Below, one piece after another: positions 1,656 to 27,679 of a DNA stretch of 64,000 nt (its first letter is position 1; every line of letters begins with the position of its first letter). Source of the DNA: Boswellia sacra (lineage: Eukaryota > Streptophyta > Magnoliopsida > Sapindales > Burseraceae); NCBI GenBank assembly GCA_013180625.2, contig SNVD02010473.1:4092001-4156000 (forward strand), read 5' to 3'. The position numbers and the translations under genes were made by a program. The notes beneath the pieces were generated by a model. That model was given only the letters and a program-made list of their open reading frames with translations, did not search any database and had not been told where the DNA came from.

Positions 1656-2063
1656 TTATTGCATAGACGTACGGTAAAAATTATCTTTGTTTACGGCGCG
1701 ACGACAGTTTTCTGGAATCTTCGCAGCGTTTGGATAGCGGTGGACGCAAGGATAATATGGACGGCCTTTGGCATGGCGACCACAGACAGAAGCTGCTTTG
1801 TCACGTTTGCCTGTGTCCTTAACAAGATGCTGGTAATTAATGGCCAATAAGCGGATACTGGGCAAATCCATCATGAACGCCAACTCTTTGTCATGTGCTC
1901 TGAGGCATTCACTCATCATGGAGGCATCGGCGTCGTTGCACAGCAGAAAGGTGGAGTTTGTCTGGCCCTTGTTGTTCTCCAATGAAGAAGAAGTGGTGAA
2001 GGGTACTATATTCATCAATAGCGTTGCTAGCGAGAGCACCACCATCAAAGTCCTGAGTTGCAT
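1656..2063 (-). CDS. RALF-like secreted peptide precursor, last cysteine lost
   Basis: This intronless 135-residue frame starts with a hydrophobic signal peptide (about residues 1-25, LRTLMVVLSLATLLMNIVPF). A prodomain follows with a cysteine pair (C..DASMMSEC), then a basic C-terminal region with cysteines spaced C-x11-C-x13-C and the PENC motif shared with the copy at 23176. RALF peptides are apoplastic hormones sensed by CrRLK1L receptors together with LLG/LRX partners, and such a receptor gene lies 0.8 kb away. The canonical RRxL cleavage site and YISY motif are absent, as in divergent RALFs. The conserved fourth cysteine is missing: compared with the paralogue at 23176, two bases are lost near 1670, which shifts the frame just before a would-be Cys codon. 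It could be a functional variant or an early pseudogene. Family assignment is fairly firm; function is inferred. Confidence 0.75.
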   Translation of the reverse strand: MQLRTLMVVLSLATLLMNIVPFTTSSSLENNKGQTNSTFLLCNDADASMMSECLRAHDKELAFMMDLPSIRLLAINYQHLVKDTGKRDKAASVCGRHAKGRPYYPCVHRYPNAAKIPENCRRAVNKDNFYRTSMQ

Positions 2064-2298
2064 TTTTTTTTCTTATTCTCTCGACTCCCTGCATGTAGTG
2101 TGCAATATCTACTTAGTTTGGCCTACGTCTTACTATAGTAGAAGTTTTGGGTGAAGGATGATTGCATAAAGTGAAAGTGGGAAATGTCTACTCGGTATGG
2201 CCCAGGTGTCAGGCTAGAACTTGCTAGATTAATGTAAGCCACCAATTCCACATCGCTAGCAACCTAATTAGTTTGTAATCAAATATAAATTATCGATC

Positions 2299-2356
2299 AT
2301 ATATATATATATATAGATATATACATATATATATATATATATGTATATATAGATAT

Positions 2357-2407
<51 letters not shown>
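2299..2407. repeat. (AT)n microsatellite
   Basis: This is a long, almost pure AT dinucleotide tract with a few GATA/CATA interruptions. It lies between the RALF-like gene at 1656-2063 and the 3' end of the receptor kinase gene at 2890. Nothing else is visible from 2064 to 2640. Confidence 0.95.
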
Positions 2408-2413
<6 letters not shown>

Positions 2414-2619
2414 TTGACTATAGAGTACTTTATAAGACTAAGATAAAACATTATTTTAAATATTTATTGGTTTTTATCATTTAAACATATTTAACAAATC
2501 TTTATATTTCTTCAACAATCCTAATTATAGAATTCAGAGAAGTACACAAATTTGTACAAACCTTATGTTATTTCTATAGTAAAACTATCAAACACAAGTA
2601 ATATATATTATTATAATTG

Positions 2620-2889
2620 ATTCTTCCCAAGGGAAAAAATGAAAGGAAAATTAGAGAAACTCAATCCCCAACTCGACGGAGTTAACATTCATGATTCAAC
2701 CAATCTATTATATAGCTAGACTCAAGTCTGTCAAGTAAGCGGTGAGACCAAATATTCGCTGCTTCCGATGGGATCCTTCAACGGCGTACCACCACATTCT
2801 CAAACTTAATAATAAATTGTGCAGCTATATTAAGGCGAGTTGTGAGAACAGCGGTTGAAAAATGTACCCATAGTGCCGTAATACCTTTC
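2620..2889 (-). repeat. Receptor 3' flank, duplicated at 15746-16019
   Basis: The 270 bases beyond the stop codon of the first receptor kinase align by eye with those beyond the second. Shared blocks include ATTCTTCCCAAG, AGACTCAAGTCT and the run up to TTTCTCATCG. The stretch is probably 3' UTR and shows that the duplication extended past the coding sequence. Confidence 0.7.
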
Positions 2890-5622
2890 TCATCGTCCTT
2901 GTGGGTTCATGATCTCAGAGAATATAGCTTTGCTATTTGAACTTTTAGTATTGAAACTTTGATCCTCACTAGTTGTTACTGTCACTGTGCTAATGGAAGT
3001 CTTTGATTCCAGCACATGGTCACCAATACTGCTGAACAAGACACCGCTATCAATGTCAGATGCATCATCAACGTTCCTTGGAGGCATCTCTTCAGCAAAA
3101 AGAGGGGCCTTCTTGCGATGATCCTCATCATTACCAGGCTTGTCATTCTCCTTCGAAGATTCCTGTAGCTGCAAAGCAAACTCAAGACTCCACACCACAT
3201 CATTCATCGATGGCCTTCTTATTCCATTATCATCCAAGCAGCTCATTGCTATCTCAGCAAATTTCTTCAAGCACTCCGGCGCTATCATACCCTTCAAAAT
3301 CGGATCAACGATTTGATCAAGTGTTCTGTTGTTATAACACTGTTGTGCCCAAAAAGCTAAACTCACTTGCTTCTTATCCACCGTTTTAAGTATTGGTGGT
3401 CTTGCGCACAAGACTTCGAACAACACTACCCCAAATGAGTATACATCAGATTTCTCTGTAAGCTGCTGAAGTCTGTAGTACTCAGGATCCACGTATCCAA
3501 AGCTGCCCTTTACCACTGTACTGACATGAGTTTTGGACATGGTAGTAGGTCCCATCTTGGACAATCCAAAATCAGAGACCTTGGCCACCCATTTGTCATC
3601 CAACAATATATTTGTTGTCTTCACATCACGATGAATGATACCGTGCTTGGTGCCTGTATGAAGATACTGAAGCCCGCGTGCTGCACCAATGCAAATCTTG
3701 AGCCTTTGATTCCATGTAAGGGGAGGATTGTCGGTGTTATAGAGATGATCACGCAAGGTACCATGAGCCATGTAATCATACACGAGGATCATCTCGCCAT
3801 GATCGTTGCAGTAACCGATGAGAGAGACTAAATGAAGGTGTCGAAGCTGGGAGAGCATCTCGATCTCAGTCTTGAATTCCAGGGCCCCCTGTTGTGACCC
3901 TGGATTCAGCCTTTTGATAGCTACAGGAGTGGCTCCGTTATTAATGTACCCTTTATAGACATTACCAAACCCTCCAGTGCCAATAATGAATGTATCATCG
4001 AAATCGTTTGTCGCCGCTCTGATCTCTGACAGTGAAAAGTGGGTACCAAGATCGGATGGTAGAGATAGGCCATGGGGCTTGGTGGACTTGGTCGTAGAAA
4101 TAGAAGATGGGCCAAAGAATGAAGGGCCTGTGCTGGAACCAGAGTCCTTGGCTTTCCTTGCTCGCCGAAAAATAAATAAAAATAGAAGAGAGATTACAAC
4201 AAAGCCGGATGCAACACCACCAACGATACCAATTAAAGTTGCACGGTTATTGGTGGATTTTGTTGATCGCGGGCTTGGCGACGGAACGGAAGGTTGACCG
4301 GACAGAGGATCGGGATTAGGTCCGGCTAGATTTCCATTTTCATCCACTTTGAAGATTTCAAGCCCATTCACGATAGCATCAGAATATACTGTTCTCCATT
4401 CCGCCGCAGGGTGCAGCGCAGCTGAGAGATTCTGCCTCTTCATATTTCCTTTTTGTGCTATAAGCACGGCGTAATCTCTGTATATTGGAATTCCGTTTCC
4501 AATTTGACCGGTCCAGCCAATAATGTCCGCGTGAGGCTCAGCAGTTTGATTAGCTATGTCGATCTGAAATACTCTATCACCAAGTTTGTTTATTTTTCTT
4601 TGAAACTCGCAAAAATGAAGCCTGACAAAATATTTAAACCCGGAATCTACTGGAAACTGCCAAGTAAGGGTAGAATGCTCGTTAAGTTCCTTGTCATTCC
4701 CCATCGACATGGCGGTTTGATAGACAATAGCCGGAGCGGTATAATTTTGTATCTGCCTGAATCTAAGAACAATACTATTGTTAGCAGGAATAGCGCCTGG
4801 TCTTGCCTCTGTCAAGTACTCCATGTACAGACCAAGCCAGGTTCGATACATGCCGGCCGTGTCATCATGGGGTGAGATAGAACTCCCGCCAATATTTATT
4901 CGGTATACTGTCTCAAGGGCGCTGCTGTTTCCAATACTGAATGAAGGGTTATCCTGGCCAAGAAATGCGGGACCTTTATCGCCGGTGGCGGTGTAATAGA
5001 GATTTGTTGGCATGTGGACAATCTCAATTCCGTTTATAAAAGCGTATGCTCCCTCAAGACTTGGCGACAAAGTTATGTTTAACCTCTGATCTTCATCGAC
5101 GTTAATGCAATATTCTTTGAAAAAGGTGTCTTCGCCAAAAGCATCAGCTGTAAGCGAAGCGCTGAAGTTGCTTAGAAGGGTAAAAGAACCGGCCATAACA
5201 GAGAAGAAAGCCTTAGATCTGTCAAAGCCAGGATACGAGGTAGGATAGAAATACAAGCGGATAAACTTTTGACCGGCCGAGACGTTGAAGATGTAGGTGA
5301 ACCGCGAATAAGACAGCCGTGCTTTCAAGTAGTAATTCTCGGGACTGCGGGCTTGTTGAGTTACGTTAGAGACTCTTGACGAGTTGTTAGCGGGTTCAAA
5401 AGAGGGAAAGTAGGGAGAGTTGCCATCTCCAGTCCATCTCCGGCCATCTGGAGAGACGAAGTTGTCAGTTGAGCCACAAGCAAGACGTATGCTTTCTCCT
5501 TGGAACGCAGAGTTATCTGCAACGGTAGCATGGTGGTGGATAAAGGAGCAGAGGTAAAACAGGGCTAGACTTATAACTGGTCGGATTTTGGCATGGAAAT
5601 GCTTACTGGAAGTGTTTTCCAT
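2890..5622 (-). CDS. CrRLK1L (FERONIA-like) malectin receptor kinase
   Basis: This single intronless frame of 910 residues has the full length and layout of the CrRLK1L family. It has a signal peptide (about 1-35), a tandem malectin-like ectodomain (about 43-425) rich in N-x-S/T glycosylation sites, one transmembrane helix (about 463-487) followed by RRARK, and a Ser/Thr kinase domain (about 540-815). Kinase residues are intact: glycine loop GTGGFGNVYKG, VAIK lysine 570, HRD Asp666 with VKTTN, and DFG Asp684. Family members act at the plasma membrane in RALF perception, cell-wall sensing, growth and pollination. Lack of introns is typical of the family. The start fits the paralogous N-termini (MENT/MERS). 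RALF-like genes lie on both sides in the cluster. Orthology to FERONIA itself is not claimed; it is a tandem paralogue with 16020-18779. Confidence 0.95.
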   Translation of the reverse strand: MENTSSKHFHAKIRPVISLALFYLCSFIHHHATVADNSAFQGESIRLACGSTDNFVSPDGRRWTGDGNSPYFPSFEPANNSSRVSNVTQQARSPENYYLKARLSYSRFTYIFNVSAGQKFIRLYFYPTSYPGFDRSKAFFSVMAGSFTLLSNFSASLTADAFGEDTFFKEYCINVDEDQRLNITLSPSLEGAYAFINGIEIVHMPTNLYYTATGDKGPAFLGQDNPSFSIGNSSALETVYRINIGGSSISPHDDTAGMYRTWLGLYMEYLTEARPGAIPANNSIVLRFRQIQNYTAPAIVYQTAMSMGNDKELNEHSTLTWQFPVDSGFKYFVRLHFCEFQRKINKLGDRVFQIDIANQTAEPHADIIGWTGQIGNGIPIYRDYAVLIAQKGNMKRQNLSAALHPAAEWRTVYSDAIVNGLEIFKVDENGNLAGPNPDPLSGQPSVPSPSPRSTKSTNNRATLIGIVGGVASGFVVISLLFLFIFRRARKAKDSGSSTGPSFFGPSSISTTKSTKPHGLSLPSDLGTHFSLSEIRAATNDFDDTFIIGTGGFGNVYKGYINNGATPVAIKRLNPGSQQGALEFKTEIEMLSQLRHLHLVSLIGYCNDHGEMILVYDYMAHGTLRDHLYNTDNPPLTWNQRLKICIGAARGLQYLHTGTKHGIIHRDVKTTNILLDDKWVAKVSDFGLSKMGPTTMSKTHVSTVVKGSFGYVDPEYYRLQQLTEKSDVYSFGVVLFEVLCARPPILKTVDKKQVSLAFWAQQCYNNRTLDQIVDPILKGMIAPECLKKFAEIAMSCLDDNGIRRPSMNDVVWSLEFALQLQESSKENDKPGNDEDHRKKAPLFAEEMPPRNVDDASDIDSGVLFSSIGDHVLESKTSISTVTVTTSEDQSFNTKSSNSKAIFSEIMNPQGR

Positions 5623-5830
5623 TGCGTCGTGAACCCTGAAAACCAGGAGTGTCAGTGGATAGATTAAGGGAAAGTTGGTAATGCAATCGAGTTTTCAGGC
5701 GCAGAAAATTCTTGAAAATAGAGTAATGAAGGCGAGTAAGAGTCAAAGTCTTTGGCAGATATTCTACGAGAAAGCAACCGGCAAGTTCTTAGTCTTTGGC
5801 ATAACTCGTAATGCCATTTTCAGATAAGGA
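5623..5830 (-). promoter_or_regulatory. Receptor 5' flank conserved with the inverted pseudogene
   Basis: The 200 bases upstream of the receptor start are closely matched, in inverted orientation, by 24920-25102 upstream of the broken receptor copy. The shared sequence runs from the ACCCTGAAAACC block to GGCATAACTCGTA. It probably contains the 5' UTR and proximal promoter. No clear TATA box was picked out. Confidence 0.55.
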
Positions 5831-7442
5831 CATTCGTTGCTATTATTATTAAGTTAAATTGTTGATGAAAGTTCAACGTCAGGATAGGTTTAATTAAAAG
5901 CAACGACTTGAAAATTGTGAAGAGAAGAATAGAAGATTTGAGATATATACCCCTTGAAATATTTAAAGCGGGATAATTTTGATAATTGACAATTGAAATT
6001 TCCGTGTGAGGACAACTTAAATCTATTAATGATGGGACAAAATACGCCTTCTTTGTTAAACATGACAGAGAGAAAAGAATAAATAGAGGCTAAATTACCT
6101 AACCTCCCCAAGAGTTTTATAGAAAAGAAGTCTTATCCTCAAAAGTTTAAAAAAAATGAGAATTTCTCCTTTTCCGTGGTTATATAACGAAAAAAGAAGT
6201 CATATTTTACTCTTGAATTCCTAGCCAAGTACCAGAAACTGAAATATGATCAAATGACGAAGAGGAAATGAACAGATGTTTTATATACTTTTAAAACCTT
6301 AAAAAAAAAAAAGCACAAAGTGTATTTGATGAAACTTTAGAGGAACAAGTTATCATCTATGAATAAAACAAATGACCAAAGAAACAAATTTTTGGCAATG
6401 AGAAAGAATTATTCAAAGCCCCACATTTCGTTCCCATCTGCAAGTCTGGGTTCGTAATTATTTCCATCGATACGTTAAAAGTAATAAGACAACTAATGTC
6501 TGAAATTGAAAGTGGCAAGCAGATTATTATTATTATTATTATTTTGCGTCGGATTATCTAATTTGCCACACAGCTTTTAGATTGTTTCTTAAGATCATGT
6601 GATATTTGGGTCTGTGCATCAAAGTACGTAACTAAATGGATTAAGACCAAACAAGAAACTAATCTTGATTGCTTCAACCACCAAATTTCTACAAGAAGAT
6701 TCAATTTTTATCAATGAAGTTTGTTATAACTTTTGTGTATATTCTTCCATTTAGCTATCTCAAGATAATAACCGATAAAATACAAATAAAATTTTTCTTT
6801 TGTTATTGAACGGGTACGCATCACTAATGTTATTGATATGATATGCTGGCCTCCAGTACAGTCAATTCCTAGATTCTGTTGGAGTCACGGGTGATCGCTA
6901 TCATCAATCGGTGACCTGTTGCATTTGAGAATAATAATTGTTGCTTGTTTTTGTCACCACTGCATACTTTGACAGAAAATTGGAAATGATCACTTTTATA
7001 TAGTGGTGTTTTATTTGAATAATTATCGTGTCATTTACATTAATTAATATAATTAAATTTTAAAGTTTACTCTTTTAATCAAAGCATGATATATTTACCT
7101 GTATAAAAAATTTATATAAAAAATTTATAAGAATAATATTACATGTTATAATATAGTACAAAACTACTTATTCAAATAAGTTTTCTCAAATTGTTTAATA
7201 AGTATATAACTTTCTAATTATACATAAAGATGTTAAAATCATTTTTCCATTTTAGAAGGTTTTCATGTATTTAACATTACATTAAAGATCATACATTAAT
7301 ATACATATCCATTTAGTTTGGAATTAAGATATTCATTTTTGTAAGTTTGTGCATAACCATAGAGAAAATATACATTGATTTTTAGATCATGATATTCGTA
7401 CTGCAACGTTCCATGCATTATAAGTTGATAACCTCATTGCAG

Positions 7443-7514
<72 letters not shown>

Positions 7515-9211
7515 TGTTACTTTTCCTTGTAAATTATCTGCGTCTCTCACCCATCTTCTCATCAATTTTCCTCAGATTCTGATCAAATATATATCTTAAG
7601 AGTCCATGATGGAAGGTGTAGATGATTGTTATTTTGAAGGTAACAATAACCCATATATGTGGAAAAGATAACATTGCGCCACCGATAAGATTCCTAGAGC
7701 AACGTTTTGATTAACATGCATGTAACAAAAGTTAATTTCATGTGATTATATGTTGTTAAAAGAAGATAGGGGTACGTGTATTCGAGATTTTCTGCATTAC
7801 TTGTGAAGCCATTAATTTGGCAATTTGCACAACCAATTGTCAATTCAAGTCAATTAATCATAATATCAAGTACAACTACTCGTCCTGCGGTTTCACTGAA
7901 ATATCTGTACTATACGCGGCGCAGGAGTTGCAAATTTTCTTCGCTTCCTCAGCCCCATTCCCGGCCCCCTGCTCAATGGTATAAATACTGCAGAAACCAA
8001 CCTCACAGTAGACTCTAAAGACTTATCTTGAAAATTTTAAATTAACATAATTCAATCGTATAATATGTGACACCCATTTTGCTATGCACGAAATCAAAAT
8101 GCAACGACATAATTCTTGCCAAAATGGTTAAAACATTACAAATTAAGGTCAATCCAAATGTGAAAAGATCGTACAAAAGACGTTTCATCTCTTTCTTTAA
8201 ATATAATTGATCACGGCTGTAGAAAGAATTTTTGTAAATATAAAATAACAAAAAAAGATGTTCAACTAGGATTACGTTTTAAAGATTTAAAAGTGTAAAG
8301 AATAAAATTTGTTTTTATAATTTGCACATGGGTGTGTTACAGGAAGAATCTTTGGTGAACACCCACTAGGGTTTTGTCACTCATGCCGACAAAATTATTC
8401 ACAATTTTTCTAGAGTTACAAATATTTTCAATATATTTGGATAAGTTCTATAGTTGATTTAATAGAAAGGTACCGAATGGTTCAAATGTAGCGCCCTTTA
8501 TTTACTGTAGCTCTCATTATCGGCCTTGTATAAATCCAAATATTGTTGTTATGATACAGTTGCTACATATGATTAATTAATTTCTATCAAATAATTCTAC
8601 ATATACAACTAACTTATACAATTATATTTCTTTTATATGATATGACACAATCTCATTAAATATATATGTAAAACTATTCATTTCCATCAAAAGTTTTATA
8701 TTAGTGTTTTTCTTTTGTAAGATTAATTAATGTGTCTATATGCTAATCTGTACAAATTCATTGCTCAGAATTTGAGCTAAATCTTGAATGAGAAATAATT
8801 GAGTGGAGTATATTCTTCTAAACTAAAGGCCAGCGAGGAAAAGTTGAAAGTTCCTTCAAGTCTTTGTCACCTTTTTGACTAATCCGCAAATTAATAGTGG
8901 GCTTATCTGCACGCCTTCGGTTTGATTCTTCGATAGTTATGTATTTCCTAAATAAATACAATAAAAAACTCGGAAGGTTAAATATGTCACACGCAAAGTT
9001 TGGGGCTATTTGATTTCATTTTCTTCGTCTCAAAATCCTATTTAATATTTTTAAACATAGTATCGATGTTATATATATATATATATATATAGTTGATAAT
9101 TTTAAGTTATTTTTATACGAAGTTTAAAGTAAAATAGCCAAATTTCTCAAGACAAATTTCCAAAATGTTCTCTCTACAACTATCCATTTTTCTATGATCG
9201 ATATCTCCCGA
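5831..9211. other. Intergenic DNA, no gene seen
   Basis: This is AT-rich sequence between the first receptor gene and the first hAT-like element. Short open frames here (for example 7776-8018 and 8042-8251) lack motifs and resemble neither neighbour. Small ATT and AT microsatellites occur near 6525, 7444 and 9068. Confidence 0.5.
7444..7511. repeat. (AT)n microsatellite
   Basis: This AT dinucleotide tract of nearly 70 bases, interrupted once by CT, lies in the intergenic region upstream of the first receptor gene. Confidence 0.95.
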
Positions 9212-14395: not shown

Positions 14396-15745
14396 CAATC
14401 ACATTGGAAATAAGGTTGATATAATTAGTTTCTAGTCTAATCATGTTACCATTGAGACTTGTAACCATTGATTTAGATCATATGAAGTATATGAAGCCTT
14501 ACAATATACCTTTCCTTATTAGGTTCCGGAGAAATTCCAGAGCTAGCTTTTGACTGAAATGCAAACTGGAGGCCGATTTACAAAAGATTAACGGAAAGAG
14601 ATCAAGTCATGCTCACTTAAAAACACGACAAAGAAAACTATTTGTTAAAGAATTTTGCAGATCGGCCCAGTCTTGCTTCAAGCCACAGATTGGCCCAAAA
14701 GTCCTATCAATATTCCGGCAACATGTGTGTGTGTGTGTGTTTATTTTTTTCTTTTCCTTTTTTGAACCTCTCTTAGAGGATCTGGTACAAGTAGAGTATT
14801 ATTTTACATGTATAATTTAGTGACAGTCTCTAATCAAACTATTTGGAATTTAATTTGAATTCAAACCCATCCTTACCTTGTTCATCTTGTTCACTCTATG
14901 CTAATATTAAGTCTCGGATGTTAAAAAAAAAAAAGTATAATAAAGGTGCAAACTGCAAGAATGGCGATATAGGTGATATTAAGTTTTCTTAAATAATAAG
15001 AAATTTATAAGACAAACCTTAATTTAGATAGCAATCCTATATACAATACAAAATGATGTAGTATATCATTAATTTATTGTCACATTATTTATCAATATGT
15101 ATTTATTTTTTTTATATTTACCTTATAACTACTTACTTGATGACACATGCATCATTTTGTATAATAAAATATTATATATATACTTTGTATTTGTTGTATT
15201 ATTTTATTTTAAATACCTCTTATTAATTTGTTATAAAATTTAAGAAAAGAAGTCTAATATATATTTTGTTGACGTTCCTAATTACAGAAAAATTATTCGA
15301 AGAAGCATACAAAATTTGGAAAAATCTTACGTAATTTATATGCACAAAATTATCATAAATAATTATTCTTGAGAGAAAATTGAAGGCAAATTAGAGAACA
15401 ATCCCTAACTTAATTGAGATGACATATAATACAAAATTTTACGTACAAAATGATGTGGTATATATTTATTTATTGTCGCATTATTTATCAACATTTAACA
15501 TTTATTGATTTAACTTTTTTACATTTACTTTACAACTTAATTGATTACAAATGATTTTGTGTACAAATTTTATAAATAAATTTGTATGTCTAGTACTATC
15601 TTATGTTTATTTAGTTATTATCAATTTTAAGAAAAGCAAGTCTAAAATATATTTAATTAACTGTCATAATTATTGAAAAATTATACAAACAAGTAGACAA
15701 ATTTCAACCAAGTCTTACATGATTGCTATATGCAAAACTACCGTA
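14396..15745. other. Intergenic DNA, no gene seen
   Basis: This AT-rich stretch carries a short GT microsatellite at about 14723-14742. A segment at 15360-15440 partly repeats the receptor 3' flank that starts at 15746 (shared GAGAGAAAATTGAAGGCAAA-like text), which hints at a local tandem duplication. No coding signal is seen. Confidence 0.4.
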
Positions 15746-16019
15746 AATGATTCTTCCCAAGAGAAAAATGAAGGCAAATTAGAGAAACAAGCCCCAGCTT
15801 GATCAAGATAACATTCAACCAGTCTAGCTAGACTCAAGTCTATCAAGTAAGTGGTGAGACCAATTCTCTCTTTCGAATGGGATCTGTCATCGAGATACCA
15901 CCTGCCAGCCATCACGCCCACGATCAAATTTTTAATCTTAACAATAAATTTAGAAGCTATTAGAACAAGTGATAAAAACAGACGGTTACGTACAATGCTG
16001 AAATTCAAAGCTATCTTTC
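15746..16019 (-). repeat. Receptor 3' flank, duplicate of 2620-2889
   Basis: The sequence after the second receptor's stop codon matches the first receptor's 3' flank over about 270 bases with scattered differences. It probably represents the 3' UTR. Confidence 0.7.
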
Positions 16020-18779
16020 TCATCGCCCTTGTGGTTTCATGCTCTCAGAGAATATAGCTCGATGCATGGTTCTGCTATTAGAACTTCTAGTAGAGAAACT
16101 GTGATCATCACCAGTTGTTGTGGTCACTGTACTAATGGATGACCTTGATCCCAGCACATGGTCACCAATACTACTGAACAAGACACCGCTATCAATATCA
16201 AATGCATCGTCAAAGTTCCTTAGAGGTGTCTCTTCATCATCAACAAGATGCTCCTTCTTGCAATGATATTCATCGTGACCAGGCTCGTCATCATTCTCCT
16301 CCGCGTTTTCCTGTAGCTGTAACGCAAACTCAAGAGCCCACACCACATCACTCATCGACGGCCTTTTTGTTCCATTATCATTCAAGCAGCTCATTGCTAT
16401 CTCAACAAATTTCTTCAAGCACTCGGGCGCTATCTTACCTTTCAAAATCGGATCAACAATTTGATCAACTGTTGCATTTTTATAACATTGTTGTGCCCAG
16501 AAAGCCAAACTCACTTGCTTCTTATCCACCGTCCGAAGTATAGGTGGTCTAGCACACAATACTTCAAACAAAACAACACCAAACGAGTATACGTCAGACT
16601 TCTCTGTGAGCTGCTGAAGTCGATAATACTCGGGATCTAAGTATCCAAGACTGCCCTTCACCACTGTACTGACATGAGTTTGGGACACTGTAGTAGGTCC
16701 CATTTTGGACAATCCGAAATCAGAAACCTTGGCCACCCATTTGTCATCCAACAAAATGTTTGTGGTCTTTACATCACGATGAATGATACCGTGCTTGGCG
16801 TCCGAATGAAGATAATGAAGCCCACGTGCTGCACCAATGCAAATCTCGAGCCTCTGATTCCACGCAAGGGGAGGATTATCGCTATTATAGAGATGATCTC
16901 GCAGGGTGCCATGACCCATGTAATCGTACACGAGAATCATCTCGCCGTAATCGTTGCAATAACCAATTAGAGAGACTAAATGAAGGTGTCGAAGTTGGGA
17001 GAGCATGTCGATCTCAGTGTTGAATTCCAGGGCCCCCTGTTGTGACCCTGGATTTAGCCTTTTGATCGCAACAGGATTGACCCCACTATTAATGTACCCT
17101 TTGTACACATTACCAAACCCTCCAACGCCAATAATGAAAACATCATCGAAGTCGTTGGTAGCCGCTTTGATCTCCGATAGTGAAAAGTGGGTACAAAGAT
17201 CAGATGGTAGAGATGAGCCATGGGACTTGCTTGACTTGGACGTTGCAGAAAAAGAAAATTGGCCCCAGAATGAAGCCCTTGTGCTTGAAACTGATTCCTT
17301 CACTTTCCTTGCTCGCCGTAAAATAAACAAAAGTAAGAGAGAAAATACAGCAAAGCTGGATGCGACAGCAGCAACGATGCCGATTATAGTCGTAAACTTA
17401 ATTTTTCTTTTTGTTGACTGTGTATGTGGCTGCGGAACCAAAGATGGGGTGATGAAGGGGTCAGGGTTAGGTCCAGATAGATTTCCATTATTGTCCACTT
17501 TGAAGATTTCTAGACCGTTCAAGATTGCATCAGAATATCTTGTCGTCCATTCAGGCGCTGTGTGCATGGCAACTGACAGATTCTGCTTCTTTTCATTTCC
17601 TTTTCGTCCCATCATCACAGTGTAATTTGTAAATATGGGAAAACCACGTCCACCGCTCCAAGAAATTATGTCTGCATGAGTCTCCGCAGTTAGATTAGCT
17701 ATGTCGATCTCGAATACTCTGTCATTCGGTTCTCTTACCTCTATCTGAAACTCGCAAAAATGAAGCCTAACAAAATACTTAAACCCGGAATCAACTGGAA
17801 ACTCCCAAGTGAGACTATAATTCTCATTGATTTTATTGTCTAGACCCATCGACATGGCTGTTTTATAGACTCCAGCCGGAGCAGTGTAATGACCTATGGC
17901 GCTCCAATTGAGATCAATTGTAAGGTTAACGGGAACAGCACCTGGTCTAGCATCTGTCAAGTAGTCCATGTAGTCACCGGTCCAGGTTCGATACATGCCA
18001 GTGTCATCTTGAGGTGAGATTTGACTCCCACCGACATTTATTCGATATACCGTCTCAAGGGCATTGCTGTTTTGAATATAGTCGGGAATCACCTGGCCAA
18101 CAAATTTGACTGCTGGCCCAGCGGCTGGCGTGTAGTAAAGATCTTGGGGCATGGAAACTATTTCAATTCCGTTGATAAAAGCATATGCATTTCGGTAGTC
18201 TGGACTTGGAGTGAAGGTTATGTTTAAACTCCCACCTTCTTCGACATTAATGCAGAATTCTTTGAAAAAGGTGTCCTGACCCAGAGCACCAGCCATAAGT
18301 GAAGCACTAAAGTTGTTTAGAAGGGTAAAAGAACCGGCGGTAACAGAGAAGAAAGCTTTAGAGCTGTCAAAGTTCGGATACGAGGTTGGATAGAAATACA
18401 AGCGGATGAACTTTGGACCGGCCGTGACATTGAATATGTAGGTGAATCGCGAATAAGAGAGTCGTGCCTTCAAGTAGAATTTCTCGGAGATGCTAATCGC
18501 TTGTTGGGGCAGAGCAGAGATACTTGAAGCGTTGTTTTGAGGTTCAAATGATGGGAGGAAGTACGGAGAGTCGATATCTCCTATCCATCTCTGGCCAGGA
18601 TGTTGAGAGTCCAGACTGCCAGATGAGCCACAGGCAAGAAGTATGTTTTCTGTTGGAGTGTATAGAGACGGTGAGTCAGCGGAAACGACGAAGGCAAGGG
18701 TCTGCAAGAAGAAGAGGTTGAAAATGGTAAGAATTGGTGGGATTTTCGCCTGGAGATAGTTGCTACAACTCCTCTCCAT
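16020..18779 (-). CDS. CrRLK1L (FERONIA-like) malectin receptor kinase
   Basis: This intronless gene encodes 919 residues from the Met at 18779. That start is preferred because MERSCSNYLQAKIPP aligns with the MENTSSKHFHAKIRP start of the paralogue at 2890; an in-frame Met at 18809 would add ten residues. Using the 18809 numbering, it has a signal peptide (to about 45), a malectin-like ectodomain (about 53-440) with many N-glycosylation sites, a transmembrane helix (about 474-498) and a kinase domain (about 550-830) with Lys583, HRD Asp679 and DFG Asp697 intact. The kinase is nearly identical to the paralogue, while the ectodomain and juxtamembrane linker differ much more. The family works at the plasma membrane in RALF sensing. 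RALF-like genes lie 3.6 and 5.1 kb away. Confidence 0.95.
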   Translation of the reverse strand: MERSCSNYLQAKIPPILTIFNLFFLQTLAFVVSADSPSLYTPTENILLACGSSGSLDSQHPGQRWIGDIDSPYFLPSFEPQNNASSISALPQQAISISEKFYLKARLSYSRFTYIFNVTAGPKFIRLYFYPTSYPNFDSSKAFFSVTAGSFTLLNNFSASLMAGALGQDTFFKEFCINVEEGGSLNITFTPSPDYRNAYAFINGIEIVSMPQDLYYTPAAGPAVKFVGQVIPDYIQNSNALETVYRINVGGSQISPQDDTGMYRTWTGDYMDYLTDARPGAVPVNLTIDLNWSAIGHYTAPAGVYKTAMSMGLDNKINENYSLTWEFPVDSGFKYFVRLHFCEFQIEVREPNDRVFEIDIANLTAETHADIISWSGGRGFPIFTNYTVMMGRKGNEKKQNLSVAMHTAPEWTTRYSDAILNGLEIFKVDNNGNLSGPNPDPFITPSLVPQPHTQSTKRKIKFTTIIGIVAAVASSFAVFSLLLLFILRRARKVKESVSSTRASFWGQFSFSATSKSSKSHGSSLPSDLCTHFSLSEIKAATNDFDDVFIIGVGGFGNVYKGYINSGVNPVAIKRLNPGSQQGALEFNTEIDMLSQLRHLHLVSLIGYCNDYGEMILVYDYMGHGTLRDHLYNSDNPPLAWNQRLEICIGAARGLHYLHSDAKHGIIHRDVKTTNILLDDKWVAKVSDFGLSKMGPTTVSQTHVSTVVKGSLGYLDPEYYRLQQLTEKSDVYSFGVVLFEVLCARPPILRTVDKKQVSLAFWAQQCYKNATVDQIVDPILKGKIAPECLKKFVEIAMSCLNDNGTKRPSMSDVVWALEFALQLQENAEENDDEPGHDEYHCKKEHLVDDEETPLRNFDDAFDIDSGVLFSSIGDHVLGSRSSISTVTTTTGDDHSFSTRSSNSRTMHRAIFSESMKPQGR

Positions 18780-21700
18780 TGTCCACTGTATGTGTTCCCT
18801 GAAGTTCAAAAATCTACAGCTTCTACAGATTACGTAAAAGCGATAAGAGTGTCGCTTCAGGCACAGAGGACGCGTGAAAAAGGAGCATCAAAGACCTCTA
18901 AGAGTCAATTGATGCAGATACTATACAGAAACACGGAGAAGTTCTTAGTCTTTTGCATGAGTGCCCGTAAACCAATCATTCAAAGTCATCACAATGACCT
19001 TTTCTTTTCAAGTTATTAATGATCTAAGATGAATTTGGTCAAAAAGTTATTTGTCAAAATACCTACAATCTAGGGCAAATCCGCCCTAAGGCATTATCTT
19101 TTTTTAATAAAAAAGAAAAAGAAAAAAGAAAAAGAAAAATTATGTCTTACATGGTTTCACATACCGAAACACATCAATCAGAGAAAGAAAGTCTTACGTG
19201 AGACAAATTTTTTATCAATCTAAACAACTTTTATTTCTTCAATAATTCTCTACACAAAGAGTTATCAATTTTTTGAATAAAAAAATTATATGTGTATGTT
19301 ATATCTTAATGCATGGTCACCTAATATTGATTCTATATGTCCATGTTCAAGTCAACAAGTATCATATGTTCGCCAAATTAATTAACTATCGTAAATAAGT
19401 TATGTTTGAACAGGCACCATCTTAAACACATATATTGCCTTAGAATAAATAAAAGAAAAAAAATGCAATGTTGATCTTTTAAAATTTTTTTGGGTTCATT
19501 AAGATGTGACAATTTTTATTAACTGTTTAATCATTTATCAAATTGTTATTGAAAGTTCTACATTTGTTTATCTTCCTGCAGTTGATACCAAATGATTTTA
19601 CACCCAACTGCTATGAATTTGTTAAAAGTTGATTACTTAGGAATATCATATGTTAATTTGGGTTTGTTTCCATCATTTAAAATTTGTTTTAACCGTTTCC
19701 TTCTCCAATTTAATTATTTCAAGACAACGACAATTCGCTAGGTACACAATTAATTTCTATGACTCTTCCTGACCCAAAACAACCAAAAAATATCTCGTTC
19801 CATCAGCCTTACTTTTGACGTGCGTAAGAGGACAATAATTATTTTTTGCCACCTTTATTTGACAAGGAACCATCTCAAACCCCTTCTGAAGATACATTTT
19901 AAATCCAAATATAGTTTTCATTGAGTTGTTTCGTGATCACCACCATATGTACATAAACTCAAATTAAATCTTATAACTTAAAAACAAAAAGAGTGAAAAT
20001 TGTAAGAGTCCTTTTTAATATTGCACAGACAGTTCTTATAAACAATAACAATAATAATATTCCGGTTTAAAAACTATTTATATTTATATATTTATTACTT
20101 AAAAGTTATTTTTGTAAAGAGTTATTACTTTCAGAAAGCTACATAAAATATAAGATTTATTTGTTACTTTTAGTCTTGCATATGATATTGCCCCTTTCCC
20201 CGTGATCCAAGGTGGAACTCACTTTTCAATTTGGTTGTGAATGCTTTCTATGACATACATTAATTTTGCAACGCGGTATCAAGTAAAACCAATCCATTTT
20301 CCTTTCTGCCATTTGGATTATGTTGGTAAATGATTGGAAATCTAATGTCTAAATTTATGTAGACAAATTTATCTCAAAAGATCTCAAATAGATATACATA
20401 TACTTGGTGGCAAATTAAATCTAGCACCAATTCAATTGCTGACTCGAAAGGCAGTCAATAAGAAGTCCAATTCTTCCATAACAAAACATATATGGACTAG
20501 GATTTTTTGAATTAAATGCTTGTGATAATATCTATATACTATTTTAAAATCATCTATATATCTAATCAAACCGTGAAGAATATAGTTAAACATGAGATTT
20601 GAGTTATTTGAAAAAAAAAAACTTTTAAACCTAATTTAATGTCCAATAAGAAGCTAAGCATTAGTTATACAATTATTTTTTGCATGAGATTTCGTATTCT
20701 TCTCATATTATGCTCCGTAGCTTTGGTTCTTCGGCTGTTTAGTACTTCACTTCAACAATTCCAACATACTCGAGGCCAAGTGAACTCATGAGGTGGAGGG
20801 GTTAAGAAACGGATCAATAAGAAAAAAGTTGGAGAGAAGAAGAAAAAGTAATGTGATGGTTAGGGTTATTAGTTTCCTTATAACTTAGGATAATTAGTTT
20901 AATAATATTTTAGTTAGTGTAACTTTATTGAGGGAAAAAAAGCCAATTAATATTCTGTATGTTTTCTCTTGGGAATAAATATTTATCATGGATTCAATCG
21001 ACAATTCTTTTAGTAAAAATCCTTGTTCATTGTGTTAGATATAGGAATATTTATCTTATGTTTCTAAGTATTATTTTTGCTTCTACTATCCCACTTCCTC
21101 AATCTAGGTGGTCTTTTTCTCACTTTTTTTGTTTTTGATTTCACAATTGTTGACATATATTGACATTCAAAATTGTCTGATCACTCTATTTATCATCAAA
21201 CAATTCCACTCATCCAAGCTTGTACTTGGATAATTAAACACAAAGACACCTCTTTAATTCAATGGCTTTGGCTAGTGAAACAACTGGATATAATAAGCAA
21301 TGGCTATGGCTAGTGATGTTTGAAGAAGCTGCGCAAGGTCAGGGAAGGGTAATCTTGGCCATTAAAAAGGGTGTGGACTGTGCAAGGGTATTTTTGGTAT
21401 TACTCAGGGTATACAAAGCAATAACCTTTTTTTTTTTTTTTTTTTAATTCTGAGTGTTTTTCTAGGTGCAAATAGCCATGTCCTTATCTAAATCGGAAAA
21501 ACAATACAATAATAACAAGTTTCTATTTTTGCATTAACTTCTTATATTATTACGTGGTACTTCAATTACTTCTTACACATAGAGCTCTTCAAGAAGTTTT
21601 CTTCCTCATAATCTATGCTTTAATTACTTTAAATTGATGGAAAATTTATTTTAAAATTGCATTAATTTAAGCAGAATTAAATTAGAAGAGCAGAAAATTA

Positions 21701-22117
21701 AAAAATTAAATTATTATAGACTTATATAGGAACTAAGATTTACTCCATTAGTTTGATTAAAATTAAAAAATTACTGTTGCGAACTCATCAATCATCGTAA
21801 TCATTAGATTTTATGAATCAATAACTATAAATTTGTGTCTAGCTCTGTGTCAACAAATTTGTGTCGAAATCTCCATTCACATACACACATACATATATAT
21901 AGAGAGAGAGACACACACACACGCTTACACTATAATAAGCTAATTTATACAAAAAAAATATTCCCTTTAACACGACGACAAAACCTTTTGTTAGGTTCGC
22001 AAGGTCTAAAAATCAATTATAATATGAATTAAACAATATTTGTTTAAAGCAAAAAAAAAAAAAAAACCAATAATCGCGTTCAATCTTTTGATCACCGTAG
22101 AAAATCGAGAGCATCAG
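18780..22117. other. Intergenic DNA, no gene seen
   Basis: The first 200 bases are the receptor's 5' flank and weakly resemble the 5' flank of the first receptor (the AGTTCTTAGTCTTTTGCAT region). The rest is AT-rich. The small frame at 21262-21447 ends in a poly-T run and has no motif. Confidence 0.45.
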
Positions 22118-22330
22118 CCGAATCAAGAAGCAATCTGCTACAATAAGAATCCCTCAAGAACTCAAAATGTTGAGAGTTGTCATGAGACAGTCATGCAAAA
22201 TGCAAGGAGCCATTGCAGTTAAAAGTGGTTCTAGTGAGATAAATGATAGTGTTTAATAGTATCACAAGTGCACGGTTGCAGGTTGCTAGACATATAATCC
22301 CCGTGATCAAATTGACTTCCATTGTTTCTT
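22118..22330 (-). pseudogene. Decayed RALF-like gene fragment
   Basis: This stretch aligns with the 5' two-thirds of the RALF-like genes at 10547 and 12053. Shared text includes AAGCAATCTGCTAC, CATCAAGAACTCAAAAT-like sequence, GAGACAGTCATG, GGAGCCATTG and the AAATTGACTTCCATTGTTTC start region. Small deletions break the frame, the GSIHDC prodomain segment is damaged, and the cysteine-rich mature part is not found beyond about 22118. The position, between the second receptor and the RALF gene at 23176, fits a formerly larger peptide array. Confidence 0.8.
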
Positions 22331-23175
22331 TTTAATCCATGTCTACCTCATCGGAAACTTTAAATAAATGAGGAGAAGCCACCGAAATTTTGCCCGGATT
22401 CACCAAATTATTATGTGTCCGCGATTGCATCACTAATTAATTAACTCTCCCTAAGTTCTACTACATTTTCTTGACCACCTTCTCAGCTCTTTTCTCAAAA
22501 AACTTTATTTGATCAGAATCCTCCGCATCAAATTGGCGTCCATATTGCAGTGCTCATGAAGAACTTGAAGTGGCTTGTATGGGTCCCCAGTGAAGGTTTT
22601 AATGATTCTGGTTCGCGTTAAATTTACGATCAAGTAAAGGGTAATTAGTGGTGGATAATAAATTTTTTTTCAGATTCATCAAATTAATTTGAAGTACTTA
22701 TGGGTGTCGGCACGTGCATTACTTTAAAAATTCCCTCCAAAGTTATCTAACAAATTTTATACCAATTTTTAATTAGATTTTCCTGATATATAAACCTTCT
22801 TGGCTCTTTTCTTCAAATTGGATTAATTGTGATTAAGCAAACAATTTATTCTTTTTCAATTTTAAATTTATTACATAATTCACATCGTTGAACAATAACA
22901 ACAAACCTTTTGTAAGCAGTACAGCGATAAGTAATTAAGCTATAGGGTCATCAGCGAATGGAATAGAAAGTTTCAATTTCTTCTGATTAAGCTAGGGTAC
23001 ATAGCTTGACAACAAATTAAAATACATTGGAAATACTTTACATAATTAATAGCTGCGGCAATAACAAAATCAAAGAATACACGATTCATAATAAAGATCG
23101 AGTGGTCGACATTATACTAAAGCAATATGAAAAGAAGAAATTAAGAATCACTGGCGTGCATGTAGTCCAGGTTTT
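22331..23175. other. Intergenic DNA, no gene seen
   Basis: This AT-rich sequence lies between the RALF remnant and the next RALF-like gene. It probably contains the 3' UTR of the latter near 23100-23175, where CACTGGCGTGCA is also found downstream of the RALF gene at 1656. Confidence 0.4.
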
Positions 23176-23556
23176 TCATCTACATAGACGGTTACGGTTT
23201 TGTCTGTAGATTGCGGCGCAATTTTCTGGATTCTTCACAGTGTTTCTCCTGCTGGGAATGCAACTAATATATGGACGGCCTCTGATTTGTCGATTACAGT
23301 CAACAACTGGTCTATTACGCAAGATTGTGCTCCTAGTAAATGGCAAGTAGCGGGCGGAAGCCATTGTGAATTCCAACTCTTCGTCATTTGCTGTGAGGCA
23401 CTCACGCATCATGGAGGCGTCGCCGCTGTTGCACTGCAGATCAGAGGTGGAGTTTGTGTGGCCATTGTTGTTATCTCTAGTGGAAGAAGTGCTGAACGGC
23501 ACTAACATCATCACTAGTGTTGCTAGTGAAAGCACCATCATCAAAGTCACTCGCAT
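23176..23556 (-). CDS. RALF-like secreted peptide precursor
   Basis: This intronless 126-residue precursor is closest to the one at 1656. It has a signal peptide (about 1-25, TLMMVLSLATLVMMLVPF), a prodomain with C..GDASMMREC, then a basic mature region with four cysteines spaced C-x11-C-x13-C-x11-C and ending C-R. The sequences GRPYISC and NPENC are shared with its paralogue. RRxL and YISY are absent. Both copies have DASMM where the other pair has GSI, so the cluster holds two RALF subtypes. The broken receptor copy lies 1.5 kb away, so this gene may have lost its original partner. Peptide hormone function is inferred from the family. Confidence 0.82.
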   Translation of the reverse strand: MRVTLMMVLSLATLVMMLVPFSTSSTRDNNNGHTNSTSDLQCNSGDASMMRECLTANDEELEFTMASARYLPFTRSTILRNRPVVDCNRQIRGRPYISCIPSRRNTVKNPENCAAIYRQNRNRLCR

Positions 23557-23879
23557 TTTGTTGTTCTTGTTTTTTCTCTCTCAAACTCCTGTAGTTCAAA
23601 TAGGAAAGTGGAAGATAAGTTACATTTATAGACTCCTCCTCGTTCCCCTGCGGCCAACAATTTTTTAAGCAATAAATTGTTGAAAAAGTTTAGAAACATC
23701 TAATGTGGCAATCATGTAGGGGACAGTAGTGCAAGACGACCTGGTCGAAAGGGCACTCACGTTCACTCTAGCTATTTGTTAACTATACATGCACCACCAC
23801 AAAGATGTAATTATTTGCATCGATTATTATGTTGTTTTGAGCTTTTAGATTGGCTATTTGGGCTGAGAAATGCATATCC

Positions 23880-24495
23880 GACAAATTGAGAACATAGATG
23901 AATATAACTCAATCATAGATACCAGTTAATCAAAATGAGAGGTGGGTGCGACAATAGATTCTGGAGTTCGACACATAACAACACTTACGACACTCTTAAT
24001 TTTTTTAGTTACATTTTTTTTTTTTTACCCTTAAAAAGAAAATGGGTTTTGACAATAAAGCAAACACTTTAAAATTTTCTGCAGTGAACCATAGGCTATT
24101 TTTCACCGCTCAGCCCATTTAAGCATCAGGCTAATGGAAACTTTCAAAATATGTAAGCTACTAGGCATGTAAACAGAAGAGGAAGAAATAGAAAGATGAT
24201 ATGAAGATACTGAGAAATTATTTAATTAAAATGAACGTAAGTGGCTGGACCTTCCATTTGGAAATTTAAAGTTGGATGTTGGAAGATACCTAACGGCTTG
24301 CGCACTGATGATGAGATAGCTAAGATAAGATATGCCAAGTTGATTAATTTTGAATTTTTTATCAAGTCCATCACTCGTTTTATTCTTTGCGTCTTATTCG
24401 CTGGTACTCTACCGGTAAGAAATTTAGGGCTCTTAGCGTTGCGTGACTTGGGTGCAAAATTTGAATTGGAGAAATTGAAAGGGATCAATTGAAAG
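23880..24495. repeat. Cluster spacer, duplicate of 12990-14395
   Basis: This second copy of the spacer lacks the hAT insertion. It lies next to a RALF-like gene, as does the first copy, which supports block duplication of RALF gene plus spacer. The open frames on both strands here are not conserved in the other copy. Confidence 0.65.
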
Positions 24496-24919
24496 ACGAA
24501 GTTGTAAGGCGAGCCATATTACTCAAATATAATTTAATATATACTAACTGATGTCATATTACTCAAATATTCACACACATCATTTCTCTTCGTAAATGAG
24601 TTAGATTTTGTAAATTCATTACTCTAATCATCTCATGACATATCTGTTTATAAATATACAAGAGTTTATATCTAAAGTTCTAAAACAAGCATTTTTCATT
24701 TACGTAATATAGAAGATATATGATATGGATATGATGGTTGACAATAGGAATCAAGAGTTTTAGAACGAGTGAACTAGCATTTTAGAAGCGTTCGTTATTT
24801 AATTAAATTGTTGGTAAGACATGATAAACAGAAAAAGTCCGTTGGGATTTCCATCGTTATTGTTTCAAGAGTTACAATATTTGGTGAAGTTATTCCCCTT
24901 TTTTTCTCTGCAAAATGCT

Positions 24920-25102
24920 TTACGAGTTATGCCAAAGACTAGGAACTTGCCAATTGCTTTCCGGTAGAATATCTGCCCAAGACTTGACTCTTTCACGTCT
25001 TTAATACTCTATTTTCAAGCATCTTCTGCGCCTGAAGACTCAATTGCATTACCAGCTTTCCTTAATCTACTGACACTCCCGGTTTTCAGGGTTCACTACA
25101 CG
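24920..25102 (+). promoter_or_regulatory. Relic promoter of the receptor pseudogene
   Basis: This is the inverted counterpart of the 5' flank of the receptor gene at 2890, from TACGAGTTATGCCAAAGACT to the bases before the ATG. Its retention shows that the pseudogene arose by DNA duplication and inversion and was not a retrocopy. Confidence 0.6.
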
Positions 25103-27679
25103 ATGGAAAACACTTGTAGAAAGCATTTCCATGCCAAAATTCGACCAGTTCTAAGTCCAACCCTGTTGTACCTCTGCTCCTTCATCCACCACCATGCCTT
25201 CACCGTTGCACATAACTCTCCCTTTCAAGAAGAAAGCATACTTCTTGCTTGTGGCTCGCCTTACAACTTCGTCTTTCAAGATGGCCGGAGATGGCAACAC
25301 TTTCCCTCTTTTGACCCCGCTAACAACTTGTCAAGAGCCTCTAACATAACTGACCAAGCCGGCAGTCCCCCGAAGTAATACTTGAAAGCACGACTGTCTT
25401 ATTCGCGGTTCACCTACATATTCAACGTTTCGGCTGGACAAAAGTTCATCCGCTTGTATTTCTATCCTACCTCGTATCCGGGCTTTGACAGATGTAAGGC
25501 TTTCTTCTCTGTTACAGACGGTTTTTTACCCTTCTAAGCACCTTCATGCTTCACTTACAGCCGATGCTTTCGGCCAAGACACCTTTTTCAAAGAATATTG
25601 CATTAACGTCGAAGAAAATCAGAGGTTAAACATAACTTTGGCGCCAAGTCTTGACGGAGCATACGCTTTTATCAACGGAATTGAGATAGTCTCCACGCCA
25701 ACAAATCTTTATTGCACCGCCACCGGCGATAAAGGTCCCAAATTTCTTTGCCAGGAGAACCAATTATACAGTATTGGAAACAGCAGCGCCCTTGAGACAG
25801 TATACCGAATAAATATTGGCGGGCGTTCTATCTCACCCCACGATGACACGGCCGGCATGTATCGAACCTGGACCGATCAGCACGTCGACTACTTGAGAGT
25901 TGATAGAACAGTCTTTGCTCCTTCTAACATTAGTATTCATCTTAATTTCAGCAAGACGGAGAATTACTCAGCTCCAGCTAATGTATATCAAACCGCCATA
26001 TCAATGGGGAACGACACCGAAAGAAACAAGATTTCTACTCTCGGAAAGAAACAAGATTTCTACTCTTACTTGGGAGTTTCCAGTGGATTCAGAGTTTTTC
26101 TATTTTGTTAGGGTTCATTTTTGCAAATTTCAGACAACGATAAAAAATTCTACCGACAGAGAATTTCAGATCGACATAGTTAATCAAACTGCGAGGCTGA
26201 GCATTACGCAGACATCATTCGTTGGACTGGTGGGTTTGGAATTCCGACATACAGAGATTACGCAGTGCTTATAGGACAAAATGAAATGTAAAGAGGCAAA
26301 ATCTCTCTATTTCACTGTACCCTGCCCCGAGTTGGATAACTAAATATTCTGATGCTATCTTGAATGGGCTCGAAATCTTCAAAGTGGACACAAGTGGAAA
26401 TCTCTCGGGACCTAATCCTGATCCTCTGGCCTCCGTTCTGTCACCACACGCGCAATCAACAAAATCCACCCATAACCATGCAACTTTAATTGGTATCATC
26501 GGTGGTCTTGCATTCGGCTATGTTGTAATCTCTCTTCTATTTTTATTTAGTTTTCGGCGAGCAAGGAAATTCAAGGACTCTGGTTCCAGCACAGGCGCTT
26601 AATTCATTGGCCCATTTTCTATTTCTGCGACCAAGTCCCCCGAATCTCATAGCTCATCTCTACCATCTGATCTTTGTTCACACTTTTCACTAGCTGAGAT
26701 CAAAGAGGCTACCAACTGACTTCGATGATTTTTTCATTATTGGCGTTGGAGGGTTTGGTAACGTATACAAAGGATACATTAATAATGAAGCCACCCGTGT
26801 TGCGATCAAAAGACTAGATCCAGGGTCAAAACAGGGGGCCCGCGAATCCAACACTGAGATCCAAATGCTCTCCCAGCTTTGACACCTTCATTTAGTCTCT
26901 CTGAATGGTTATTGCAATGATCATGGAGAGATGATCCTGGTGTACGATTACATGTCTTGTGGTACCCTGCGTGATCATATATATAGTTGCAAAAATACTC
27001 CTCTTCCATGGAATCAAAAGCTCATTATCTTCATACGGGCACCAAGCACGTCATCATTCATCGCGATGTGAAGGCAACAAACATTTTGTTGGACGAGAAC
27101 TGGGTGGCCAAGCAATCAGATTTTGGACCGTCCAAGATAGGAGCTAGTGGCATTTCCAAAACAAATGTCAGTACAAGGGTGAAGGGCACTATTGGATATT
27201 TGGATCTGAGTACTATGGACTTCAGCATCTTACGGAGAAATCTTATCTTTACTCATTCGGGGTAGTGTTGCTCGAAGTATTGGGTGCTAGACCCCCTATA
27301 ATTCAAACGGTCGGCAAGAAGGAAGCGAGTTTAGCAGTTTGGGCACAGGAATGTATCTCAATGGAACGATTGATGAGATTGTTGATCCAGTTCTGAAGGG
27401 TAAGATAGCACCCGAGTGCCTGAAAAGATTTTCTATGAGTCAGCAGTGAGCTTCTTGAATGAAAACGGAATCAGACGGCCATCGATTAGTGATGTGGCGT
27501 GGAGTCCTGAATTTGCATTGCAGCTACAGGAGAGTGCAGAGAATGATTGGACTGACCAAATGATGGGGGGTTCCTAATTGTCGTCGCAGCTACAGGAAAG
27601 CACAAAGACTGATTGGGCTGATCAGACGGAGGCCAGCATCGTAGAGGAAGATAATCATCTCGAGGACAATGCAACTTAA
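25103..27679 (+). pseudogene. Broken CrRLK1L receptor kinase copy, inverted
   Basis: This copy is collinear with the gene at 2890 from its MENT start through malectin-like domain, transmembrane helix and kinase, but it carries many lesions. They are a nonsense codon at 25376 (TAC to TAA), a one-base loss near 25525, and a 25-bp tandem duplication (26019-26043 and 26044-26068) that shifts the frame. Further lesions are a small insertion near 26190, a stop at 26600 after the transmembrane segment, a one-base insertion near 26716, and CGA to TGA at 26880. A deletion near 27020 removes the stretch before HYLHTG, and one base is lost near 27213. The HRD catalytic loop remains readable ([15 protein letters not shown]). 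The C-terminal tail repeats an LQES..DW.DQ segment. It is unlikely to encode a receptor; transcripts could still exist. Confidence 0.93.

Follow-up and report, generated by a model that had tools for sequence, protein, structure and literature searches.

Probably old linkage of RALF-related peptide and FERONIA-like receptor kinase genes in Boswellia sacra

Are RALF-type peptide genes and CrRLK1L receptor kinase genes that lie interleaved in the genome of Boswellia sacra paired as ligands and receptors, or are they neighbors by chance? The question is raised by the window, the 64,000-nucleotide stretch analyzed here, in which positions 1656-27547 hold four RALF-related peptide genes, one peptide relic, two intact FERONIA-like receptor kinase genes, and one broken receptor gene (Table 1). 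According to the available text of one review, the known CrRLK1L receptors are RALF receptors, and its table names no receptor for several RALFs (PMC12807370). No earlier report of linkage between RALF and CrRLK1L genes was found in the literature searched, which for the most part excluded subscription papers and contained no preprints.

Table 1. Peptide and receptor features of the cluster within the window.
Feature	Position	Strand	Basis
R1, RALF-related peptide gene, 135 aa	1656..2063	-	ORF; alignment with R2-R4; cysteine count
K1, intact FERONIA-like CrRLK1L receptor kinase, 910 aa	2890..5622	-	Pfam kinase and malectin-like; solved-structure search; tree
R2, RALF-related peptide gene, 115 aa	10547..10894	-	ORF; 64% identical to R3 (alignment)
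R3, RALF-related peptide gene, 114 aa	12053..12397	-	ORF; genome search
K2, intact FERONIA-like CrRLK1L receptor kinase, 919 aa	16020..18779	-	Pfam kinase and malectin-like; 70% identical to K1
Relic of RALF-related peptide gene, contains stop	22107..22322	-	tblastn; genome search with R3
R4, RALF-related peptide gene, 126 aa	23176..23556	-	ORF; groups with R1, support 0.93
psK3, broken FERONIA-like receptor, inverted relative to K1	about 25065..27547	+	inverted repeats with K1; frames, stops

The interleaving of RALF-type and FERONIA-type genes described in the first-pass annotation was borne out by the open reading frames, the Pfam matches of the receptors, and tblastn matches of the relic to R2 (E 5.7e-6) and R3 (E 2.5e-7). 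That layout stood, with the corrections that the peptides lack a Pfam RALF match and that the cluster is larger, starting ∼89 kb to the left of the window at C5300:4.003 Mb and spanning ∼116 kb overall. The whole cluster comprises eight peptide genes, of which one is frameshifted, and seven receptor loci, besides relics. At its left end, a recognized RALF of the RALF-like 27 type (RA) lies 1448 bp from an intact FERONIA-like gene; RA matched the Pfam RALF model (E 1.5e-8, 36 bits, cut-off 22) and contains ISY, though not the full YISY motif. The claim that no other genes lie between these held for the three open reading frames of at least 80 aa outside the genes in positions 1-30000 (843-1106, 15715-16023, and 27844-28173), none of which had a Pfam match; the gaps also hold 26 stop-to-stop frames of at least 70 aa, and finely split genes could escape that scan.

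Their malectin-like ectodomains and kinase domains, together with the tree, mark K1 and K2 as FERONIA-type CrRLK1L receptor kinases predicted to bind RALF peptides; the best solved-structure matches of K1 were FERONIA, and K2 was placed beside it through their 70% identity. The broken receptor psK3 was nearer to K1 than to K2 (81% vs. 72% of bases); its alignment to K1 broke up into five matches, which were spread over two reading frames and contained 13 stops altogether, the last match lying partly in the wrong frame.

The four window peptides showed no Pfam family match even at E 10, were absent from the matches of a genome scan with PF05498, and contain neither the YISY motif nor a dibasic RRXL cleavage site; the missing Pfam match and YISY motif thus place them as RALF-related peptides rather than canonical RALFs. 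Their link to RALFs is drawn from the cysteine pattern, the resemblance of the prodomain, and the visible name Rapid ALkalinization Factor on six of their 38 profile matches. The C-terminal part contains four cysteines in R2, R3, and R4 and three in R1, which may be decaying. An AlphaFold2 model of R3 from a 28-row alignment reached a mean pLDDT of 55.9 and a pTM of 0.20, and solved-structure searches with R3 and the leftmost RALF as queries returned no RALF match. The peptides resemble the clade IV RALF-related peptides of Campbell and Turner (PMC5258720) in the absence of YISY and RRXL and in the variable mature part; however, in the available description, clade IV peptides are short (mean 88 aa) and without an acidic region, whereas the window peptides are 114-135 aa long with a prodomain stretch before the mature part and thus depart from that description.

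The proximity of these genes is not expected from random placement, under which ∼0.03 RALF loci would fall within 10 kb of a receptor (hand-compiled counts). Of 28 places in the genome matching the Pfam RALF model, 27 lie away from all 48 receptor matches, and the 28th is the leftmost cluster member; the sole contig shared by a non-cluster RALF match and a receptor match (C20) has ∼560 kb between them. A genome search with R3 found seven places, six inside the cluster, but overlooked the known cluster members R4, RC, and RD, so distant members elsewhere could escape likewise; that the peptide family seems confined to the cluster is the result of this search and of the Pfam model. RALF-type peptide genes and CrRLK1L receptor genes are linked here on a larger scale than first described, and the grouping apparently extends to other Sapindales and to Malvales. 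In nine of 12 informative species, the contig of a related peptide has the same length as that of a close receptor, whereas the other three show no shared contig; in the four species with visible locus tags, the nearest receptor is five to nine tags from the peptide. The linkage is therefore probably old.

The co-duplication proposed in the first-pass annotation was not supported. Self-comparison of the cluster returned gene-sized matches only, with no block holding a peptide and a receptor together, and the position and strand of the nearest peptide vary from receptor to receptor. The receptor Ka sits in a different clade of the tree from K1, K2, and Kd, a point against tracing every cluster gene to a single pair, and no peptide gene was seen beside the Ka paralogs in the stretches of C5674 and C3708 that were read.

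We give an even chance to the reading that these RALF-related peptide and FERONIA-like CrRLK1L genes form an old cluster, expanding locally, with ligand-receptor pairing inside it. Such a cluster probably grew from a neighboring RALF-like-27/FERONIA-like pair; its peptides would leave the cell by secretion, undergo trimming close to a conserved R-L-L/I-like site, and be bound by the malectin-like ectodomains of adjoining receptors or close paralogs, as RALFs are with FERONIA. Gene-by-gene birth and death would give each lineage its own gene set, and tight linkage may hold working partners or shared expression together. The pairing itself is plausible by analogy to the RALF/FERONIA module, with which the cluster shares the receptor family, a recognized RALF at its left end, and related precursors whose prodomain and cysteine pattern are similar. 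It differs from that module in that the window peptides lack YISY, RRXL, and a Pfam match, and in that its genes are linked, whereas the other 27 RALF places in the genome are not near a receptor match. The absence of YISY was counted against pairing because this motif contacts the LLG co-receptor, according to the available text of the review (PMC12807370).

Alternatively, one RALF and one FERONIA-like gene may have been chance neighbors in an ancestor, both then multiplied through inversion and unequal exchange amid abundant repeats, with the peptides now serving other receptors or decaying. This is a real, if tentative, possibility, consistent with the lack of a joint duplication block, the several relics and broken copies among peptides and receptors alike, and the cysteine lost from R1. 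Tandem clusters of malectin-domain receptors are also common in poplar, a similar local receptor expansion, although the available text of that study does not mention peptide genes among the receptors (PMC7783096). However, passive linkage sits poorly with the apparent conservation of the grouping across several families and with the constraint on prodomain and kinase. The dN/dS of the kinases was 0.11-0.12 in K1, K2, and Kd; such strong constraint implies that these receptors are probably in use. The peptide prodomain was likewise constrained, and the intervals of dN/dS for the mature peptide include 1.

The ectodomains of the cluster receptors evolve ∼3 times faster than their kinases. Comparable ratios of ectodomain to kinase were seen in two receptor pairs without known linked peptides (L031/L030, 0.49 and 0.19; L032/L033, 0.16 and 0.06, with dS saturated), and diversifying selection on the ectodomains was not supported. 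Positive selection was not significant. In sliding windows, isolated peaks exceeded 1 without adjustment near residues 1-60, 351-410, 441-490, and 831-870 (K2/Kd) and near 811-850 (K1/Kd), to which no weight was given. The recognition role put forward in the first-pass annotation thus gained no positive evidence from the fast ectodomains or the mature peptides, and remains speculative. Its strongest form, a supergene predating the split of Sapindales and Malvales in which YISY-less, RALF-derived peptides would be dedicated ligands of the interspersed FERONIA-like receptors and form a species- or haplotype-specific recognition code in pollen-pistil interaction or defense, is unlikely. Diversification of receptors and peptides in response to pathogen signals, such as RALF mimics made by microbes, is less likely still; birth and death with broken copies would resemble resistance-gene clusters, and fungal RALF homologs work through plant RALF signaling (PMC12786044, available text), but the ectodomain dN/dS of 0.32-0.35 is well below 1.

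A reproductive locus at which pollen acceptance depends on linked alleles of a peptide and a receptor, by analogy to SCR/SRK in Brassica, is the least probable reading, since both kinds of gene occur in several copies instead of as a single pair, positive selection was not significant, and no second haplotype was found in the assembly as judged from K1 (one copy at 100%, next match 77% identical) and the right-flank gene (one copy at 100%, next match 70%), even though the Brassica S-locus likewise links small cysteine-rich peptides to receptor kinases (PMC13033167, available text) and pollen RALFs work via FERONIA-type receptors at the Arabidopsis stigma (PMC12786044, available text). The S-locus further differs in its receptor and peptide families, and the many-copy cluster is known from one assembly. 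For the cacao self-incompatibility locus, the report consulted names GEX1 orthologs at CH4 and, at CH1, a BAM1-like receptor kinase; RALF does not occur in its main text (PMC5853246).

Returning to an old cluster with paired ligands and receptors, its side-by-side peptide and receptor genes name testable pairs and would reveal if the two partners diversify in step. Should the pairing hold true, the cluster would represent receptor-kinase/peptide linkage beyond the Brassica S-locus, built on the RALF/FERONIA module, which controls growth as well as reproduction and immunity.

In the window, six complete open reading frames and two broken genes lie between 1.7 and 27.5 kb, which confirms the cluster of ligand and receptor genes that the first-pass annotation had placed at 1656..27679, and a further 120 kb read to the left enlarged it. 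Both intact receptors, K1 and K2 (70% identity), are uninterrupted malectin-like receptor kinases (Pfam); the top matches of K1 to solved structures were the kinase and, among ectodomains, FERONIA (302 bits), which scored above ANXUR2 (242 bits). The broken receptor, psK3, is oriented opposite to K1 and is nearer in sequence to K1 than to K2. Antisense open frames occur at the same place in K1 and K2 (window 3060-3389 and 16202-16543, +), probably a by-product of conserved codons. The window also holds two exact 59-bp tandem duplications (40402-40521 and 42616-42734) and a satellite-like 233-bp array (43273-44135).

Cluster members left of the window (coordinates of contig C5300)
Feature	Position	Strand	Remarks
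RA, peptide gene	4002952-4003302	+	Pfam RALF, E 1.5e-8
Ka, receptor (L017:2750-5440)	4004750-4007440	+	896 aa; FERONIA ectodomain match 398 bits
Receptor fragment	4041.0-4041.5 kb		
Kb, receptor	4044411-4046865	+	frameshift near catalytic loop breaks gene
Kc, receptor	4049052-4051634	+	kinase complete, tail short
Kinase fragment	4070.85-4071.0 kb		
RB, peptide gene	~4071.3-4071.6 kb	+	frameshifted
RC, peptide gene	4073824-4074207	+	
Kd, receptor (L010:7149-10000)	4079149-4082061	+	open apart from one AT-rich stretch
RD, peptide gene	4085514-4085912	-	
Relic pieces	near 4085.0 kb and 4089.3-4089.6 kb		

Right of the relic pieces follow the window genes, running to ~4119.5 kb. Matches to K1 covered seven receptor loci in the cluster, and 0.27 to 4.9 kb separate a peptide gene or relic from the nearest receptor or receptor fragment. 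Judging by its sequence, the AT-rich stretch of Kd could be spliced as a 189-bp intron, whereas K1 and K2 are uninterrupted. Degenerate long tandem arrays with open frames of up to 366 aa separate the cluster halves (C5300:4062.6-4069.1 kb).

The four window peptides, R1-R4, all begin with a hydrophobic segment, carry F-x-M in a prodomain stretch and end in a C-terminal part rich in cysteine; Pfam gave no family for any of them, even at E 10. A profile search with these peptides (E <=0.01) recovered 38 proteins, 24 from Malvaceae, 6 without organism name and 8 from Pistacia, Melia, Castanea, Vitis, Cannabis (two), Trema and Parasponia; the name Rapid ALkalinization Factor was visible for six of the 38, and no protein of the set carried a precomputed Pfam domain. 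With RA, the left-most RALF, added, a second profile recovered 13 proteins (2 already in the first set); the Pfam RALF domain was present in 8 of them, and 4 were named RALF-like 27. Since this profile contained a RALF, its support for RALF kinship is only partly independent.

Across the assembly (638.6 Mb, 7431 contigs), the search with K1 gave 2457 candidates, of which 50 were scored, yielding at least 48 matches with E <=1e-60; RA alone among 28 Pfam RALF places lay near one. Only one other contig, C20, held both, ~560 kb apart; under random placement, ~0.03 RALF loci would be expected no more than 10 kb from a receptor, given a receptor count compiled by hand. Searching the genome with R3 (E up to 1) returned seven places: six belong to the cluster, and the seventh is a canonical RALF on C928. 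This search was not exhaustive, since R4, RC and RD were missed. Around the Ka paralogues, the stretches read (~C5674:402-435 kb and ~C3708:196-218 kb) contained no peptide gene. FERONIA-like genes and gene fragments, several of them broken, form another group at C3708:181539-253318, with no peptide gene in the 196-218 kb read; C6321:361513-524390 has four Pfam-RALF places and no receptor match among the at least 48, a RALF cluster without receptors.

For other species, peptide matches were compared by eye with 120 listed of 2141 receptors via contig size and locus tags, equal contig size being a proxy for the same contig. Thirteen species had both kinds of match among these; Corchorus capsularis (small contigs) was set aside as uninformative. 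Nine of the remaining 12 had a peptide and a listed receptor on an equal-sized contig, the listed receptors so placed being 3/3 in Pistacia atlantica, 1/4 in Craigia, 3/4 in Diplodiscus, 3/5 in Pterospermum, 4/4 in Melia, 1/3 in Hibiscus trionum, 1/2 in Theobroma, 1/2 in Mangifera and 1/1 in Citrus clementina. Reevesia, H. sabdariffa and H. cannabinus had no shared contig among the 120 of 2141 receptors, the others of which could change that. Tags were visible for both partners in four species: Pistacia (peptide 21688; receptors 21671, 21677 and 21679) and, taking a step as 100, Craigia (5 steps apart), Diplodiscus (7, 19 and 21) and Pterospermum (5 to 19). The linked peptides of Mangifera and Citrus (the latter placed by tree) belong to the RALF-like-27 group, not the divergent type. 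Contig sharing, as contig sizes and tags rather than a synteny map, supports an old peptide/receptor linkage.

The receptor phylogeny (57 proteins: 14 from this genome and 43 chosen from the 120 listed of 2141; psK3 left out) united K1, K2 and Kd (0.996), with Pistacia and a single protein of Mangifera as their sister group (0.984) and Citrus and Melia apart. Judged from this single gene family, the plant is probably related to Anacardiaceae, as members of Burseraceae are. Ka clustered with C5674 and C3708 genes (0.998), distant from K1, which counts against simple descent of all cluster receptors from Ka. In the midpoint-rooted peptide tree (7 own peptides and 27 chosen from 49 matches), R2/R3 grouped with Melia (0.90) and next with Malvaceae (0.78), R1 paired with R4 (0.93), and RA fell within the RALF-like-27 group, itself with Anisodus (1.0); placement of RD, RC and Pistacia was weak (0.2-0.34). 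Self-comparison of the cluster DNA revealed no block containing both a peptide and a receptor. Of the earlier interpretation, the linkage is supported and the joint duplication of ligand and receptor genes is not.

By Nei-Gojobori, dN/dS in four cluster receptor pairs was 0.32-0.35 for the ectodomain and 0.11-0.14 for the kinase; in two receptor pairs without known linked peptides it was 0.49 and 0.19 (L031/L030) and 0.16 and 0.06 (L032/L033, dS saturated). Pro and mature parts gave 0.30 (0.12-0.69) and 0.77 (0.35-1.79) for R2/R3, and 0.52 (0.25-1.15) and 1.37 (0.71-2.84) for R1/R4, with overlapping intervals; the mature parts are thus fast-changing, without significant positive selection in either pair. 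Between Ka (L017:2750-5440) and L030 (C5674:422900-425600), synonymous distance was 0.57 in the ectodomain and 1.62 in the kinase, a difference such as exchange or conversion of one part between loci might leave.

CrRLK1L-type receptors with constrained kinases lie next to both a recognised RALF and a family of divergent RALF-related peptides; the peptides would be secreted, processed and bound by the receptors. One review describes the RALF receptors known so far as CrRLK1L proteins and the YISY motif of RALF23 as touching the LLG co-receptor (PMC12807370). Because the window peptides lack YISY, they would be expected to bind differently, perhaps as antagonists or via the cysteine-rich part. 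RALF10-13, 25, 26 and 30 are members of clade IV, which lacks YISY. The Arabidopsis stigma is where these pollen RALFs act, according to a second review (PMC12786044). Absence of the motif thus need not exclude function. A search with partial literature coverage found no earlier description of linked RALF and CrRLK1L gene families; such a family, apparently undescribed in the literature searched, is of interest, and the putative ligand/receptor cluster may possibly serve in recognition or self-incompatibility.
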